Below are positions 44,633-51,657 of a stretch of 64,000 bases of DNA, piece by piece. The translations under genes and the position numbers were made by a program. Position 1 is the stretch's first letter. The number at the start of each line of letters is the position of its first letter. Under the pieces are notes generated by a model that was given only the letters and a program-made list of their open reading frames with translations, was not told the origin of the DNA and made no database searches. This stretch comes from Bacteroidia bacterium. Lineage in GTDB: Bacteria > Bacteroidota > Bacteroidia > J057. The stretch spans positions 7,502,001 to 7,566,000 of the forward strand of contig JAWPMV010000001.1 in NCBI GenBank assembly GCA_033391075.1, given 5' to 3'.

Positions 44633-46522
44633 TCAGGCAGATTCGATGATCTCCATCAGCTCCAGCCAGCGATCTGATTTTGTATCAAGATCTGCATTGA
44701 GCTTTTCCAGTTCCTGGGAGAGTTCCGCCAATTTCTCAAAATCGCTACCGCCCGCATTCATCAATTGTGTGATCTCTGCTTTGCGAGATTCCATTTGATC
44801 GATATCTCCTTCCAGCTGTTCAAATTCCCTTTTTTCATTAAAGGAAAGCTTACGTTTGTTGTTATTCTTGGGCTTTTCCGAACTATTCTTTTCAACTTTT
44901 ATCGTCGCCTCTTCTTTTTCCGCATCCTGGATAGCTTTCCATTCCCGATATTGAGAATAGCTACCAGGATAATCTTTAATCTGCCCTTCTCCCTGAAATA
45001 CAAAAACATGGTCCACCAGTCTATCCATAAAGAATCGATCATGGGTAACGACTAGTAGGCAGCCTTCAAAATTTTCCAGAAATTCTTCCAATCGCCTCAA
45101 GGTGATCAAATCAAGATCATTGGTGGGCTCATCCAGGATGAGGAAATTTGGATTGGTCATCAGGATACGCAGCAAGTGAAGCCGCCTCCTTTCTCCTCCG
45201 CTCAGGGTCTCAACAAAATTTGAGTGCATGGAGCGGGGAAAGAGAAAATGCTCCAGTAAAGTAGCCGCAGAAACGGTCTGACTTTTACTCAATTCTACCT
45301 GCTCTGCAGCTTCAGTAACTACCTCGATGACACGCTGATTATCCTTAAAAGCAAATCCGCTTTGCTTGTAATATCCATAAACAATGGTATCGCCCAATCT
45401 GATTTTGCCCGAGTCTGCCGCTTCTTCTCCCGTGATCATACGGAGGAAGGTGGTTTTTCCGACTCCATTGGGACCAATGATGCCTATTCTATCTCTTCGG
45501 GCAAAGGTATAGGTGAAATTGTCCAGGATATTGAGCTCTCCGTAATTCTTGCGCAGATTTTTGATCTCCAATACTTTTCCGCCGATTCGTCTTCCCTTTA
45601 CTTGCAGCTTTACATCCTGATTGGGAGCTCGATATTTGGTTTTTTCTCCCAAATCAAGGGCAGCACTTATGCGAGATTTTGATTTGGAAGTTCTGGCCTT
45701 TGGAGAACGGCTGAGCCACTCAAGTTCTGTTTTGAAGAGACTTTTCGCCTTCTCAGTCTCAGATAATTTCAGAGAATCTCGTTCTGCTTTCTTTTCCAGG
45801 AAGTAGGCATAATCCCCTTTATAAGAATACAATTGTCCCTGATCCAGCTCAACAATCTCATTGGTGATGCTATCGAGGAAATAACGGTCGTGAGTCACCA
45901 GAAATAGACTTTGCTTACTGGTCGAGAGAAATTGCTCCAGCCATTCGATACTTTCGAGGTCAAGGTGGTTGGTGGGCTCATCCATGATCATGAGGTGAGG
46001 GTCTCCCATTAGGGCCTGAGCCAGAGCTACTCGCTTTCTTTGTCCACCTGAAAGTTCGGATATGTAGGTATCGAGGAAATTTACTTCCAGTTTCCCCAGA
46101 ATCTGCTTGATCTTTACTTCATAATCCCAGGCATTGAGGGCATCGATTTCTGCCATGACTTTACTCAAGGCTTCTTGTTGCGCTTCATCCTGAATATCTG
46201 CATTGAGCAACTTCTCATATTGCTCAATGAGTTTTAGTTCCGGTAAGTCAGCGGAAAAAACACATTCAGCTACAGTAAGGTGTTCGGGTAGATCTGGTTC
46301 CTGGGGTAAAAAGGCTACTCGTATCCCTTTCCTCACACTCACCTTACCTGAATCTGGCGCTTCCAGTCCCGCAACAATTTTCAGGAGCGTTGATTTACCA
46401 CTTCCATTGACTCCAATCAGGGCGATTTTCTGGCCCTGGGCAATCCCAAAACTCAAATCCTCAAATAAGAATTTATCCCCAAAGGATTTCGAAACTTGCT
46501 CTATGGAAAGGTAATTGATCAT
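44633..46522 (-). CDS. ABC-F family ATPase (Uup-like)
   Basis: The 629-residue soluble protein has two ATP-binding cassettes, GVNGSGKST (37-45) with LSGGQRKRVALAQALM, and GPNGVGKTT with LSGGERRRLHLLRILM; both have Walker B aspartates (LMIMDEPTNHLDLES, FLILDEPTNDLDL). It has no membrane part. The linker between the cassettes and the C-terminal coiled coil (about 560-629, Glu/Lys rich) are as in Uup/EttA-type ABC-F translation factors, which act on the ribosome. Resistance subtypes cannot be excluded but are less likely. The gene is preceded by a repeat element and a candidate RNA gene on the same strand. Confidence 0.93.
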   Translation of the reverse strand: MINYLSIEQVSKSFGDKFLFEDLSFGIAQGQKIALIGVNGSGKSTLLKIVAGLEAPDSGKVSVRKGIRVAFLPQEPDLPEHLTVAECVFSADLPELKLIEQYEKLLNADIQDEAQQEALSKVMAEIDALNAWDYEVKIKQILGKLEVNFLDTYISELSGGQRKRVALAQALMGDPHLMIMDEPTNHLDLESIEWLEQFLSTSKQSLFLVTHDRYFLDSITNEIVELDQGQLYSYKGDYAYFLEKKAERDSLKLSETEKAKSLFKTELEWLSRSPKARTSKSKSRISAALDLGEKTKYRAPNQDVKLQVKGRRIGGKVLEIKNLRKNYGELNILDNFTYTFARRDRIGIIGPNGVGKTTFLRMITGEEAADSGKIRLGDTIVYGYYKQSGFAFKDNQRVIEVVTEAAEQVELSKSQTVSAATLLEHFLFPRSMHSNFVETLSGGERRRLHLLRILMTNPNFLILDEPTNDLDLITLRRLEEFLENFEGCLLVVTHDRFFMDRLVDHVFVFQGEGQIKDYPGSYSQYREWKAIQDAEKEEATIKVEKNSSEKPKNNNKRKLSFNEKREFEQLEGDIDQMESRKAEITQLMNAGGSDFEKLAELSQELEKLNADLDTKSDRWLELMEIIESA

Positions 46523-46562
46523 AGGTAGGTAATTCAGGCGCTAAGTTAGGGAAAGATTGGGA

Positions 46563-46717
46563 GTGTTAAGGCGTTAGCGTGTTTGGGTGTTTGGGTGTTA
46601 GAGTGTTAGTGTTTTAGAGAGGGTGTGTTCAGGTGTTCTCGTGTTCTGGTATTCTTGTTGGAGAATTGGATTCTCTACTTTACCCTAACACACTAGAACC
46701 CTAAGCCCCTAACACAT
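46563..46717. repeat. Composite GTGTTAG/GTGTTC inverted repeat (copy 3)
   Basis: The left side is a long run of GTGTT units (GTGTTAAGGCGTTAGCG, GTGTTTGGGTGTTTGGG, GTGTTAGAGTGTTAG, then GTGTTCAGGTGTTCTC), the right side CCCTAACACACTAG and CCCTAAGCCCCTAACAC, around a core with ATTCTCTAC as in copy 1. It is the longest member and joins both unit types. It lies between the ABC-F start and the RNA gene's terminator. Confidence 0.65.
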
Positions 46718-46746
46718 AAAAAAAGGCCGATGAATACTCATCGACC
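46718..46746 (-). terminator. Terminator of the candidate RNA gene
   Basis: On the minus strand GGTCGATGA/TCATCGGCC (one mismatch) with a 4-base loop, followed by seven T. Confidence 0.85.
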
Positions 46747-47032
46747 TTCTGGTTTTTGGTAAGTTCTAACGATAGGTTTTTTCCTTGATGTGTCCTGCTA
46801 AATCCCCATTGAATAGCAGACTCTGACACATTCCCCGAATATTATTATGGTGTTTTAGCTACAAAGGTTACCATTGAACGGGGGGTTTAGACCGCAAATA
46901 AGAATGAGCGCTTTCAGGTCAGGTTTGAATAAGAACGAGTCATCTCGTCTTATCAGATTTGCTGTCGGTGTCAATACAGCAGGTCGTGAATGCTTGGGGA
47001 GTCGATCTTGCTTAGAACAAGCAATTGTAAAC
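46718..47032 (-). ncRNA. Candidate non-coding RNA gene of unknown class
   Basis: This stretch lies between two minus-strand terminators and has no ORF on that strand. Read 5' to 3' on the minus strand it can fold: a 6-bp hairpin (TTGCTT/AAGCAA, about 47020), GCTGT/ACAGC (about 46980-46961), an 11-bp stem GATAAGACGAG/CTCGTTCTTATT with one bulge (46954-46927), and a double stem ATGTGTC/GACACAT with inner CTGCTA/TAGCAG (46832-46788), plus the terminator hairpin. The 5' end is uncertain; TTTG and TATAAC boxes 19 bp apart (47063-47033) are a poor promoter match. It does not show the hallmark sequences of tmRNA, RNase P RNA or SRP RNA. A leader for the downstream ABC-F gene is an alternative. Confidence 0.5.
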
Positions 47033-47179
47033 AGGTTATAGTGTTTGTGATCGTTATTACAAAGGAAAGCCAGAGCGATGGGAAATTCAATCTGTTATTC
47101 AAATATTATTAACATTCAAAATATTTGGTTTATTGCGAAATATCGTATTGATTCCCTGCGATTCAGGCAGATATAGCGT

Positions 47180-47223
47180 AAAAAAGTGACGAAGGCGGGC
47201 CTTGTCTTACAAGGCCCGCCTTC
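47180..47223 (-). terminator. Terminator of the amidohydrolase operon
   Basis: A perfect 15-bp stem (GAAGGCGGGCCTTGT/ACAAGGCCCGCCTTC) with a 3-base loop; on the minus strand GTCAC then six T follow. It starts 18 bp after the last amidohydrolase stop. Confidence 0.9.
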
Positions 47224-47241: not shown

Positions 47242-48549
47242 TTATTTCTTTGTACCTGGGTCTCTTTCAAGGAATTCATCATATAGCCTGATTTGGCGGC
47301 TATCGATAGGAATATTCCATCCCTCGATGAAGAGGTGAGATATTGTCGTTTTTGTCTCAAAAGGATCTCCATCTGATACAAAGAGGGTAGCACTCTTACC
47401 AACTTCAATGGAACCTAATTGCTCGGAAACGCCAAAGATCTCAGCAGGAATTATAGTTACTGCTTTGAGCGCTTCTTCGGTACCCATTCCATAAGCTGCA
47501 GCAAAACCCGCATTGAAAGGGAGGTTACGAACGTTCTCCGAATCATCGGTACGGATAGCCACTTTCACTCCGGCTTTCTGCATGAGTCCCGCATTTGCAT
47601 ATGCTTTGTCATATCTATCAGAAGAACGGCGTGGAGTCTGAAGTACAGGACCTGTGATTACCGGGATTTTGGACTCTGCCAATTTTTCGGCTACTCTCCA
47701 TCCTTCAGCAACTCCGGTAAAGATGGCATCTACTCCTTTATCCGTACACCAGCTAATGGCAGAAAGAATATCTGAGGCAGAATTTACTTCGATCAGCAAT
47801 TTGGCTTCTCCTTTTACAACAGGAACTAAAGCTTCCATTTCCGGATAATAAGCAGGCTCTTCAGCTTTGCCGGCTTTATGTGCATCTGCAACTTCAGCAA
47901 ATGCCTTGGCCTGATCCCAGACTTCATTTAGCTTTTTGAGCTTTTTATCGAGATCTTTTTTCATGTCCTCTTCACTTCTCCTGTCAAAACGACTTCTGCG
48001 ACCCGTTGCAGGGAAGAGAAGGCGTACCGCTTTGAAGCCGGCATACATTTGCTTTGGCGTATATCCATGAAGATTGATAAGAGCTGCTGTACCGGGAAAA
48101 ATCCCACCTGTTGGCTGAGCCAAAACAGTTGTAACTCCATTTACACGGGTAACCGGAATAGCTACTGCATTAGGATTCACAGCCGTCAGTGCCTGCATAT
48201 GTGGATTAAGATCTCCTACTTCTCGGAAGTCATTGGTCAAAGAGATAGAACTAATTTCCGATAGACCCAGGGTAGTACCACCATCGATCATACCTGGATA
48301 AATATGCTTTCCACTGCAATCAATCTCTTCAGCTCCTGCAGGAATTGAAACAGAAGCACCCATAGCAGTGATCTTTCCATCCTGAATAATAAGGGTTCCC
48401 GTTTGCGTACCATTGGTAACTGTATGAATGGTGGCATTCTTAAGGGCGAACGTTCCATTCTTCCCTTTGCTCATCTGAGCCTGCAGACCTCCCATGCCGA
48501 GCATGAGCAGACTGCAAAGAAGGATATATGTATATGATATTTTTCTCAT
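47242..48549 (-). CDS. Secreted amidohydrolase-family protein, metal-binding HxH absent
   Basis: The 435-residue product has a signal peptide (cut near residue 24) and the overall amidohydrolase sequence pattern: ATIHTVTNGTQTGTLIIQDG (small N-terminal beta domain), IYPGMIDGGTTLG where the enzyme family has GxIDxHxH, and the late VAIRTDDSEN and LGSIEVGKSATLFVSDGDPF motifs. The HxH pair is replaced by GGTT, so the first two metal ligands are missing; the late Asp (TDD) is kept. It is therefore probably not a normal metal hydrolase. It is the last gene of a three-gene operon (16 bp after the previous stop) and is followed by a strong terminator. Confidence 0.85.
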   Translation of the reverse strand: MRKISYTYILLCSLLMLGMGGLQAQMSKGKNGTFALKNATIHTVTNGTQTGTLIIQDGKITAMGASVSIPAGAEEIDCSGKHIYPGMIDGGTTLGLSEISSISLTNDFREVGDLNPHMQALTAVNPNAVAIPVTRVNGVTTVLAQPTGGIFPGTAALINLHGYTPKQMYAGFKAVRLLFPATGRRSRFDRRSEEDMKKDLDKKLKKLNEVWDQAKAFAEVADAHKAGKAEEPAYYPEMEALVPVVKGEAKLLIEVNSASDILSAISWCTDKGVDAIFTGVAEGWRVAEKLAESKIPVITGPVLQTPRRSSDRYDKAYANAGLMQKAGVKVAIRTDDSENVRNLPFNAGFAAAYGMGTEEALKAVTIIPAEIFGVSEQLGSIEVGKSATLFVSDGDPFETKTTISHLFIEGWNIPIDSRQIRLYDEFLERDPGTKK

Positions 48550-48565
48550 GATTTCTTCTGACTGA

Positions 48566-49900
48566 TTATTTATTCACCATAGTTGAACCTTCCATACAGG
48601 CATCACGATCTCTTTCAAAATATAGGATCGGCATAACCTTTTCTTCTGGATTGACAGAAAGACGCATGTCATCCGCATCTTTGTTGATGTCAAATCTGAT
48701 TACTCCATCTACAATGGTTTTTTGTGGAATGGCATAGATAGAAAGCGGATGGTTCTTGAAAATAGCGATATCTCCATCTTTTCCTTTTTCGATAGATCCA
48801 ACACGACTGTCAATACCCAATTGAATTGCGGGATTGATCGTAATCAGTTTGAGGGCCTCATTATCTGTCAGGTTTCCATAACGCTGAGTTTTGGCAGCTT
48901 CATGATACAGATGGCGAATCAATTCTCCTGAGTCAGAGTTGATAGAAGTTACTACACCATTTTTTGTCAAAATAGCAGCATTGTATGCAGTTGAGTAGTA
49001 TACCTCAAACTTGTAGGCCCACCAGTCTGCAAATACAGAGGCATGTGCCCCAAACTCTGCCAATTCAGGAGCTACTTTGAATCCTTCATTGGTATGTTGG
49101 TAGGTGATGTTGTTTACCCCAAAGTCTTTGAGCACATTCATCAACATCAAAATCTCATCAGCCCTATAACTATGGCAGTGGATGAGAATTTTTCCGTCAA
49201 GGATGTCAGCCATTGTTTGGAGGCGAAGAGAATATTCAGGAGCATCCATTTCAGGATTGGCTTCATACTTTTTCCAGGCCGCCTTGTATTGCTGAGCTTT
49301 GGCAAAAGCCTGGCGAATTACCTGCTCAACTCCCATACGTGAACTTGGATTTACACCACTTCTCTCTCCATGACTTCTCATGGGATTTTCTCCCAGCGCA
49401 AATTTGATGGTTCTGGGGGCTCCTTCCATGCGAACATTGTCAGGATCCATCTCACCCCAGCGGTGCTTGATCGTTTCGCATTGTCCTCCGATAGCATTGG
49501 CAGAACCGTGCATGGCATGAGAAGCGGTAACTCCACCTGCCAGCGCTCTGTACAGGCTAATGCTGGTTGGTTCTACTGCATCTTCTGTAGACACTTCGGG
49601 TGTGATAGGATTAGAGCCTTCATTGACGGCACTCAATCCTGCATGGGAATGTGCATCAATGATTCCTGGCATTACATACATGCCAGTAGCATCGACCGTT
49701 TCAACTCCCTTGGGAGCTCTCAGGTTTTTTCCAATACGATTGATCTTTCCATCTCTGATCAGGACATCCGTATTTTCCAGATCCCCTCCTGTGATGGTGA
49801 TAACCGTTCCGTTCTTTATAAGTAAGCTTCCTTTCTTTGGTTGAGCCTGAAGACTCACAGCCATGAGAAAGCAAAGGGCAAATATTATATGCTTATACAT
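48566..49900 (-). CDS. Secreted amidohydrolase with intact metal site
   Basis: The 444-residue product has a signal peptide (cut near residue 19) and an amidohydrolase domain with a good first metal motif: MPGIIDAHSHAGLS (HxH), later ILIHCHSYRADEI, YQHTNEGF, and SINSDSGELIRHLYHEAAK with the catalytic Asp. The final part, IEKGKDGDIAIFKNHPLS, is typical of imidazolonepropionase/dihydroorotase-like enzymes. The substrate is unknown; peptides or cyclic amides are possibilities. Of the three amidohydrolase-family proteins in this operon it is the only one with a complete set of motifs, so it probably supplies the chemistry. It is the middle gene, 29 bp from the upstream and 16 bp from the downstream neighbour. 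Confidence 0.9.
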   Translation of the reverse strand: MYKHIIFALCFLMAVSLQAQPKKGSLLIKNGTVITITGGDLENTDVLIRDGKINRIGKNLRAPKGVETVDATGMYVMPGIIDAHSHAGLSAVNEGSNPITPEVSTEDAVEPTSISLYRALAGGVTASHAMHGSANAIGGQCETIKHRWGEMDPDNVRMEGAPRTIKFALGENPMRSHGERSGVNPSSRMGVEQVIRQAFAKAQQYKAAWKKYEANPEMDAPEYSLRLQTMADILDGKILIHCHSYRADEILMLMNVLKDFGVNNITYQHTNEGFKVAPELAEFGAHASVFADWWAYKFEVYYSTAYNAAILTKNGVVTSINSDSGELIRHLYHEAAKTQRYGNLTDNEALKLITINPAIQLGIDSRVGSIEKGKDGDIAIFKNHPLSIYAIPQKTIVDGVIRFDINKDADDMRLSVNPEEKVMPILYFERDRDACMEGSTMVNK

Positions 49901-49929
49901 GATTTTCTTTTTTGTTTAGCTAAATGAGT

Positions 49930-51657
49930 TTATTCAGGCGTGGAAGTTCTTTCCCCTTTGATCGGAAAGGAGCCAAATGATCCCACTTCCATATCTCCTT
50001 CAAAGCTTTCGCCATCCAATACTACAGATATTTCAATGGTGATGTTTTGCCCACCTCCATCAATGCTCATGCTAAAGCTGAGGTCATTTCCGTCCAGGAT
50101 GACATTGTCCAAATCCTGTACTTCTCCAGGCCCCTGGTCACTTTCAAGTGTTCCAACAATGCTTCCATTTTCTTCTGTGAAAGTAATGGTACCTGTTCCG
50201 CTTTGACCGGGAGTTTCTGCTTCAAAGCTCCATTCTCCAAGTACAGCAGCCATATTGCTTTCCCCACTAGGTTCAGCACCTCCTTTAGACTTTTTCTTCT
50301 TTTTGGCCTTAGCTTCATATTTGTACATGCTACCATCAACAAAGACATAGCGAACCTGTGATTTCTCATTGAAATAAGGCATATCCGAAACAACCAAATT
50401 GGCCATTTTTCCCTTTTCAACAGTTCCCATGACAGAAGATAGTCCCAGCAGTTCTGCCGGTCCGGTTGTCAAGGCAGCCAAAGCGGCATCTTCGCTCAGT
50501 CCATGCTCGATCATGGTTCGAAGGTTACTTTTTATATCCTTTCCGCTTACTTCCAGGTTTGAAAGCCCAAAGGTGATTCCTGCTTCCTGAAACATAGCTG
50601 CCTGAGCTGCATATTTTTTATACCATTCAGCTTTTCGGGCTTCAAGAGCTTCAACCTCTTTTTCACCCATAGTCATCTCTTTGCCTTCTTCCTTATCTTC
50701 CTTCTTTGCTTCTGGCTTTTTGGGCAGGTCGGTGGAAAGAAAAACAGTGGTTCCACTGCTCTTGATTTTGTCAATCAGTTCCCAACCCTCTTTCAGTTCA
50801 ACCAGGGTCAAATTGAAGCCCAGTTCTTTTTGCAGTTTGAGGGCACGGAAGGCAGTTGAAAGATTTTGTGTGTGGAAAAAGATGTTTTGCTTTTTATCAA
50901 TGCTGGGATAAAAGGCAGTCAATACGCGGTCATTGTTTGGACGAGCTTTGCCGATGGGATTGCTGGTATATTTTTCGGCATGCGATTTACTGAGCTCTGC
51001 ATTTCTGTAGAGGTCTCTGAATTTCGCCATAACTCCAATGACGGTTCCCGGATAAACTCCCCTGTTTCCCTGTAAGGTGCTAAACAAAGAGGTGTTTTCC
51101 ATGAAGATCATATCATCAGCACTTTTGCCATCCAACAAGATGACGGCTCCCTGACCCGGAAGCGGGTTTCCATGGGGTACTGTATGAGAAGCTGTAAATC
51201 CCAAAGCTCTCATCGCAGAAATAGATTTGTCATCTGCCTTGAGCAATTCCTTCACACTTCTCTCAGGCATAATTCCCGCGATATTATTCGGGGGATTTCC
51301 CGGTACTTCTACGCGTGGACGATTTCTGTCTGCTTTGGGTTTAGGTACTCCCGTATGCGAAACACCTTCAATAAATCCGGCATAGACATACATAGAGTCA
51401 GCCTTGATGCGCTGTGCATCTGCAGGGATGGATACATTGGTCCCTACTGCCATAATAAGACCGTCCTTGATTACTACAGTCCCCATGCCCAGGCTTTTGC
51501 CGGGTGCTTGCATGATATTTACATTGGTGAGGGCGTAGGTACGATTGACGGGTTTAAGATTGCCGCTACCTTGAGCAACAAGCTGCTGGACCGGTAACCC
51601 CAGAAATAGGCATAAGGCCAAACTGAGGAAACAGGTGCTACGTAGCAATAGTTTCAT
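49930..51657 (-). CDS. Secreted amidohydrolase-family protein, metal site lost, with C-terminal beta domain
   Basis: The 575-residue product has a signal peptide (cut near residue 28) and an amidohydrolase-like sequence in which the HxH becomes IEGVSHTG and the late catalytic Asp region reads GLSNLEVSG, so most metal ligands are absent; the end motif MGTVEKGKMANLVVSDMPYF is kept. A Lys-rich stretch (EAKAKKKKKSKGG) leads into a C-terminal beta-rich domain of about 120 residues (VLGEWSFEAETPGQSGTGTI, LSFSMSIDGGGQNITIEISV) that looks like a lipocalin/avidin-type sandwich. Probably a non-catalytic partner of the middle gene. It is the first gene of the three-gene operon and is divergent from nuoK. 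Confidence 0.85.
   Translation of the reverse strand: MKLLLRSTCFLSLALCLFLGLPVQQLVAQGSGNLKPVNRTYALTNVNIMQAPGKSLGMGTVVIKDGLIMAVGTNVSIPADAQRIKADSMYVYAGFIEGVSHTGVPKPKADRNRPRVEVPGNPPNNIAGIMPERSVKELLKADDKSISAMRALGFTASHTVPHGNPLPGQGAVILLDGKSADDMIFMENTSLFSTLQGNRGVYPGTVIGVMAKFRDLYRNAELSKSHAEKYTSNPIGKARPNNDRVLTAFYPSIDKKQNIFFHTQNLSTAFRALKLQKELGFNLTLVELKEGWELIDKIKSSGTTVFLSTDLPKKPEAKKEDKEEGKEMTMGEKEVEALEARKAEWYKKYAAQAAMFQEAGITFGLSNLEVSGKDIKSNLRTMIEHGLSEDAALAALTTGPAELLGLSSVMGTVEKGKMANLVVSDMPYFNEKSQVRYVFVDGSMYKYEAKAKKKKKSKGGAEPSGESNMAAVLGEWSFEAETPGQSGTGTITFTEENGSIVGTLESDQGPGEVQDLDNVILDGNDLSFSMSIDGGGQNITIEISVVLDGESFEGDMEVGSFGSFPIKGERTSTPE

Follow-up and report, generated by a model that had tools for sequence, protein, structure and literature searches.

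The window, a 64,000-nucleotide stretch of DNA, corresponds to positions 7502001-7566000 in the 9.5-Mb genome of a Bacteroidia bacterium. Three consecutive amidohydrolase-family genes, recognized as open reading frames (ORFs) with matches to Pfam Amidohydro_1/3, occupy positions 47242 to 51657 of the window on the minus strand (49930-51657, 48566-49900, and 47242-48549). The top-scoring matches of the amidohydrolase among named genome contigs are from Saprospirales and other Bacteroidota, which makes the organism a probable Saprospirales-type bacterium. The next gene downstream, also on the minus strand (ORF 44633-46522), encodes an ABC-F ATPase, in which Pfam identifies two ABC domains and the ABC_tran_CTD domain. 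The DNA between the amidohydrolase and ABC-F genes contains two hairpins. The first (47180-47223, minus strand) has a 15-bp stem and is the presumed, possibly leaky, terminator of the amidohydrolase operon. The second (46721-46750, minus strand) is a predicted intrinsic terminator, positioned 491 nt from the nearest upstream same-strand gene and 198 nt upstream of the same-strand ABC-F gene. The hairpins are separated by a non-coding gap (46751-47190, minus strand), the candidate body of a short transcript, and folding of the minus strand predicts an interrupted rod-like hairpin within it (46804-46884).

An imperfect palindrome of 8-nt repeats is located between the second hairpin and the ABC-F gene (46545-46715). 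It is built from the units GTGTTAGN / GTGTTCTN, which are followed by reverse-complement units, and similar arrangements of 8-nt units are present at other loci (L002-L007). The genome contains 79 exact matches of GTGTTCTNGTGTTCTNG, overlaps counted, compared with seven of the reversed control pattern, and there is no exact match in 12 other genomes of the family. The element resembles a dispersed hairpin repeat particular to this lineage; a limited literature search listed no title on it. The repeat element is more unusual than the gap in front of the second terminator, and its genome-wide occurrence may deserve separate attention.

Structure of the two hairpins

The first hairpin has a perfect 15-bp stem (47223-47191) with a 3-nt loop, and its folding energy of -29.2 kcal/mol is equal on both strands. 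A tract of six U residues follows the stem after a 5-nt spacer (GTCAC TTTTTT). An initial sequence-only reading of the locus had described this feature as a perfect 15-bp terminator ending the amidohydrolase operon; the perfect stem is indeed present, but the U-tract is set off from it by five bases. The same reading had placed a second minus-strand terminator at 46718-46746, and this hairpin is confirmed at 46750-46721. It is formed of 13 pairs, including G-U pairs, with a 4-nt loop and a U-tract directly adjacent to the stem on the minus strand. Its energy is -17.1 kcal/mol on the minus strand as opposed to -11.3 kcal/mol on the plus strand. The hairpin favours the minus strand, since a plus-strand RNA would have A.C mismatches in place of its G-U pairs; the asymmetry therefore points to a minus-strand transcript. 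By sequence, the locus has the predicted same-strand intrinsic terminator and the lack of a coding ORF that are expected of an intergenic small RNA (sRNA). Terminator-like sites as such are not enriched in the region, as a 3-kb scan found two, with 2.5 expected from shuffled sequences.

Coding potential and folding of the gap

The distance between the terminators, previously given as about 430 bp without an ORF, was measured as about 440 bp and carries no coding signal. The best ORF of at least 30 aa in the gap has a codon score of 3.2 on the plus strand and 1.0 on the minus strand, compared with 25-157 for seven nearby called genes. Fourteen stop-to-stop frames of at least 25 aa are present in the gap. 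Nine were scanned against Pfam and gave no match, and two more were scanned as start-codon ORFs, with a sub-cutoff match of ORF 46701-46829 to DUF6075 (E 0.04) as the only result; the three frames outside the Pfam scans mostly overlap the first hairpin or a gene. A search of 31 genomes with the two longest frames inside the gap (79 aa and 60 aa) gave only self-matches below E 0.04. The conserved ORF that would speak against an RNA gene was thus found neither by Pfam in the nine frames nor by the protein search in the 31 genomes. A hidden or decayed ORF has no support from codon scores, Pfam, or protein matches and was rejected.

The 343-nt stretch originally proposed as the RNA is more stable than expected (z -3.7, with none of 100 shuffles equally stable). 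Without the terminator, the values are z -1.9 on the minus strand (6 of 200 shuffles) and z -1.8 on the plus strand (9 of 200). Among pieces selected post hoc, region 46800-46890 has z -2.7 on the minus strand (0 of 200 shuffles) and z +0.4 on the plus strand, the double stem described below and an 11-pair stem each reach z -2.8 when folded alone (3 and 5 of 200 shuffles, respectively), and 46756-46890 has z -0.75, matched by 48 of 200 shuffles. The control set consisted of 104 intergenic strands from 52 regions with at least six windows each (825 of 1423 windows). Of the 104 control strands, 51 have a 90-nt window at least as low as the best minus-strand one of the gap (z -2.6), and 24 have a mean window z at least as low as its minus-strand mean of -0.96; the gap's best plus-strand window (z -2.9) is lower than its best minus-strand one. 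The folding between the hairpins is ordinary in comparison with control intergenic regions.

The individual stems noticed in the sequence-only reading can be located in the gap. Its 11-bp stem at 46954-46927 was recovered as 11 pairs with one bulge at 46954-46928. The double stem of ATGTGTC/GACACAT (46831-46825/46794-46788, minus strand) with the inner CTGCTA/TAGCAG (46819-46814/46800-46795, minus strand) exists, as does the closing pair GGTAA/TTACC (46872-46868/46762-46758), but neither structure forms in the 343-nt RNA. In a folding series with the RNA 3' end fixed at 46718, the double stem and the closing pair each have a probability of 0.99 for starts at 46873-46878. The values are 0.85-0.98 for the double stem and 0.61-0.74 for the closing pair at starts 46880-46882, and 0.17 and 0.02, respectively, at 46884. 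The double stem is back up to 0.35 for a start at 46900; for starts at 46960 or further upstream it does not exceed 0.04, and the closing pair has a probability of 0.00. From 46884 on, the rod-like hairpin 46884-46804 wins over both elements. When 46756-46880 is folded, its minimum-energy structure also contains the GGTAA/TTACC pair. If only 5-mers whose starts are 40 nt or more apart are counted, the 343 nt contain 57 perfectly complementary pairs.

No match above the gathering threshold was found in the window by the Rfam search that had been suggested as a check, with the 6S/SsrS families included. A scan of the gap up to E 10 gave 12 matches, none of them to a 6S family; nqrA-II, the L20 leader, SdsR, and the others (best E 0.13) are below threshold, at chance level, and were rejected. 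The best match of the 6S model RF00013 in the genome scores 14 bits and lies outside the gap, and RF01685 has no match in the whole genome. RF00013 matches 8 of 14 control genomes, four of them over the cut-off. Of 119 genomes in the class, RF01685 matches three, each below its cut-off, and it matches 0 of 14 controls; because it detects so few genomes of the class, the silence of Rfam on 6S RNA is weak evidence.

The second terminator in the genome and in relatives

Terminators were surveyed in 784 kb of the genome, comprising the window and 36 other 20-kb stretches. The counts are approximate because the genes in the sample were called with a crude codon-score script. There are 120 strong intergenic terminators in the sample, 80 of them within 150 nt behind a same-strand gene and 12 at more than 150 nt; for 25 the next upstream gene is on the opposite strand, and three are at edges. 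Five of the 12 distant terminators, including the second terminator of this locus, are more than 400 nt behind the gene, which makes it uncommon but not singular. Some of the far-off terminators could follow undetected small genes. The four others beyond 400 nt (L177 14587-14547, L157 11870-11837, L153 2755-2786, and L175 19103-19134) may mark overlooked small genes or sRNAs.

The placement of U-tracts was compared in the 89 strong hairpins found behind gene ends in the same sample. A T-rich tract starts 0-2 bases after the stem in 37 hairpins, at three bases in one, and at four or more bases in 15, and is absent by the same rule in 36. By our own count, 11 of the 15 late-tract hairpins contain a run of at least four T in the 3' arm of the stem, and the first hairpin is one of the four that do not. 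It may leak because its U-tract is late and its 3' stem arm has no T run. The efficiency of a terminator is not readable from sequence in this genome, however, as a T-rich tract is missing from 36 of the 89 hairpins.

Conservation was examined in 60 genomes, the studied genome and 59 relatives, of which 12 belong to the same family and none to the same genus; the 13 genomes of the family, the studied one included, fall into 10 genera. The gap DNA is single-copy in its own genome at E 0.001; the own-genome matches of a wider stretch come from the neighbouring repeat and from the first hairpin aligned with its own reverse complement. A gap match at E 1 or better was obtained in 47 of the 60 genomes, the studied one included, and the matches in relatives, among those listed, span 16-51 bases with a best E per genome of 0.0014, none of them convincing. 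An nhmmer search of the gap against the collected loci, minus five containing the window region, gave nothing below E 0.1. Permissive blastn matches in L010 and L014 (E 0.001; 45 and 59 bases) were taken as chance, these loci having been preselected by similarity, and in the 300 bases inspected of locus L011 there is just the 26-base match. The comparison with relatives proposed alongside the initial reading thus yielded no convincing conservation among the 59 relatives or the collected loci.

Amidohydrolase orthologues were collected at 36 loci, 34 of which extend at least 300 nt downstream; several resemble copies of one another (L071/L075, L079/L080, and L103/L104). A terminator is present 18-36 nt after the gene in 10 of the 34. 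A second one within 800 nt downstream was seen at none of the 34 loci (L089 is visible to 318 nt). A hairpin 313 nt after the amidohydrolase of L072 is inside another ORF. At 29 ABC-F orthologue loci, the amidohydrolase of this cluster is absent from the up to 1.5 kb covered upstream. At five of the 29, the 200 nt upstream of the gene contain a same-strand hairpin that is not inside any listed ORF. These hairpins fit the upstream gene's own terminator, because each is 23-85 nt behind an upstream same-strand ORF.

Origin and possible function of the second terminator

The most likely role of the second hairpin is to terminate a short non-coding transcript that is lineage-specific and begins in the 440-bp gap, a reading to which we assign a probability of roughly 0.4. 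The lean is weak, and backup termination of the amidohydrolase operon is a close rival. A promoter inside the gap would start a minus-strand RNA, which the second hairpin would terminate. Such a transcript, possibly of 110-200 nt, would be an ordinary intergenic unit of the sRNA type. Any regulatory role is conjectural, with base-pairing to mRNAs as the default guess. The short transcript is favoured by the 13-pair hairpin with its adjacent U-tract, stabler on the minus strand than the plus-strand fold, by the 491 nt that separate the terminator from the nearest upstream same-strand gene, and by the lack of an ORF with coding signal in front of it. It is disfavoured by the absence of an Rfam family and of convincing conservation, by the ordinary folding between the hairpins, and by the number of terminator-like sites in the 3-kb scan, which is not above that in shuffles. 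There is also no clear promoter in the gap. The best Bacteroidota-type match, at 46865, agrees in 8 of 10 specified bases, and a match of the sigma-70 type (47051-47024) agrees in 9 of 12; sigma-70-type sites in the 3-kb scan number seven, not clearly above the 4.9 (sd 2.1) expected from shuffles. Motif learning from 293 upstream regions of the genome gave no usable promoter motif.

Short RNAs of this kind have been described in the phylum. For Bacteroides thetaiotaomicron, PMC7366714 describes 49 mapped intergenic sRNAs, each with its start site and terminator; 27 of these are strain-specific. The absence of conservation therefore does not exclude an sRNA; conserved sequence was not found in the relatives, which include none of the same genus, and it is not required for a transcript to be counted as one. 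In Flavobacterium psychrophilum, the account in PMC9723704 lists 85 new independent RNAs, 40 of them antisense. The gap resembles the terminator-ended sRNAs of both reports in being a non-coding intergenic stretch with an intrinsic terminator, and the often strain-specific ones of B. thetaiotaomicron in that no conservation was found. The RNAs of both reports were mapped, whereas the candidate described here is a prediction from sequence.

It is possible, although less probable than a short transcript, that the second terminator catches readthrough that has leaked past the first hairpin, and that the gap is an extended 3' UTR of the amidohydrolase operon. The initial reading had argued that a second terminator needs its own transcript. 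That conclusion is not compelled: if the first hairpin leaks, as it may, transcripts reading through it would use the second terminator as well. A leak is suggested by the U-tract that begins five bases after the stem and by the membership of the first hairpin among the 4 of 15 late-tract hairpins without a T run in the 3' arm. The tract-less 36 of 89 hairpins make tract placement little informative about efficiency. A precedent is provided by the Flavobacterium transcripts attributed to partial termination ('3'-PT'), described in PMC9723704 as located beyond a 3' region with a predicted intrinsic terminator at its end. The gap likewise follows a gene with a predicted terminator at its 3' end, but it differs from that class in that another terminator comes after about 440 nt and in being a prediction from sequence. 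In our judgement 440 bp is long for a backup role, and none of the 34 amidohydrolase orthologues, one visible to 318 nt, has a second terminator within 800 nt. As judged from these two reports (PMC7366714 and PMC9723704), a short RNA and backup termination would both be ordinary for the phylum.

An improbable alternative to these explanations is that the terminator is a functionless hairpin left from a gene or mobile insert whose decay has made it unrecognizable. The gap adjoins a dispersed repeat element and gave no convincing match in relatives, as such a remnant might. The absence of Pfam matches in nine stop-to-stop frames, the search of 31 genomes in which the 79-aa and 60-aa frames matched themselves alone below E 0.04, and the finding that the gap DNA is single-copy in its genome at E 0.001 argue against it.

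Some antibiotic-resistance ABC-F genes have attenuator leaders. The position of the terminator 198 nt upstream of the same-strand ABC-F gene would suit such a leader, in which an RNA started in the gap either stops at 46721 or continues over 200 nt into the gene, depending on an alternative fold. This is very unlikely. The terminator has a pair probability of 1.0 in three folded contexts, the best complementary upstream stretch reaches -14.1 kcal/mol and is matched by 21 of 200 shuffles, and the palindromic repeat occupies most of the 200 nt between the terminator and the ABC-F gene. The upstream hairpins at 5 of 29 ABC-F loci are each placed as would be expected of the upstream ORF's own terminator. 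With no antiterminator beyond chance and no recurring leader in orthologues, the attenuator was rejected. Similarly unlikely is a lineage-specific riboregulator in which the start site picks the fold, acting as a free sRNA or a switchable ABC-F leader; longer RNAs would form the rod 46884-46804, and those starting at about 46873-46882 would form the closing pair and the double stem.

That the gap encodes the 6S RNA of this lineage is the least credible explanation: the GGTAA/TTACC pair, said earlier to recall 6S architecture, does close around the double stem with probability 0.99 in RNAs running from 46873-46878 to 46718, giving a short closing pair around a bubble within a narrow range of starts, but unlike 6S RNAs (RF00013 and RF01685) the gap has no model match (RF00013 scores best elsewhere, at 14 bits), its closing stem is of 5-6 bp in place of a long one around a central bubble and is lost for starts at 46884 or further upstream, and relatives, in which a 6S RNA should have been retained, gave no convincing match. 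The short, conditional closing stem and the missing match in relatives weigh more than the silence of Rfam.

The locus is probably an ordinary case of an orphan second terminator in an unconserved gap. Of the separate minus-strand RNA gene that was first proposed, the strand-biased terminator and the lack of coding signal before it hold, but a transcript of its own is not compelled; an RNA gene in the gap is possible and unproven. A distant second terminator, when the hairpin before it has its U-tract displaced, does not on its own count as evidence for an RNA gene. An RNA from the gap would change little, because dozens have already been mapped in the two Bacteroidota covered by PMC7366714 and PMC9723704. 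Such a transcript would be another unassigned small RNA, in a large-genome bacterium that has been little studied.
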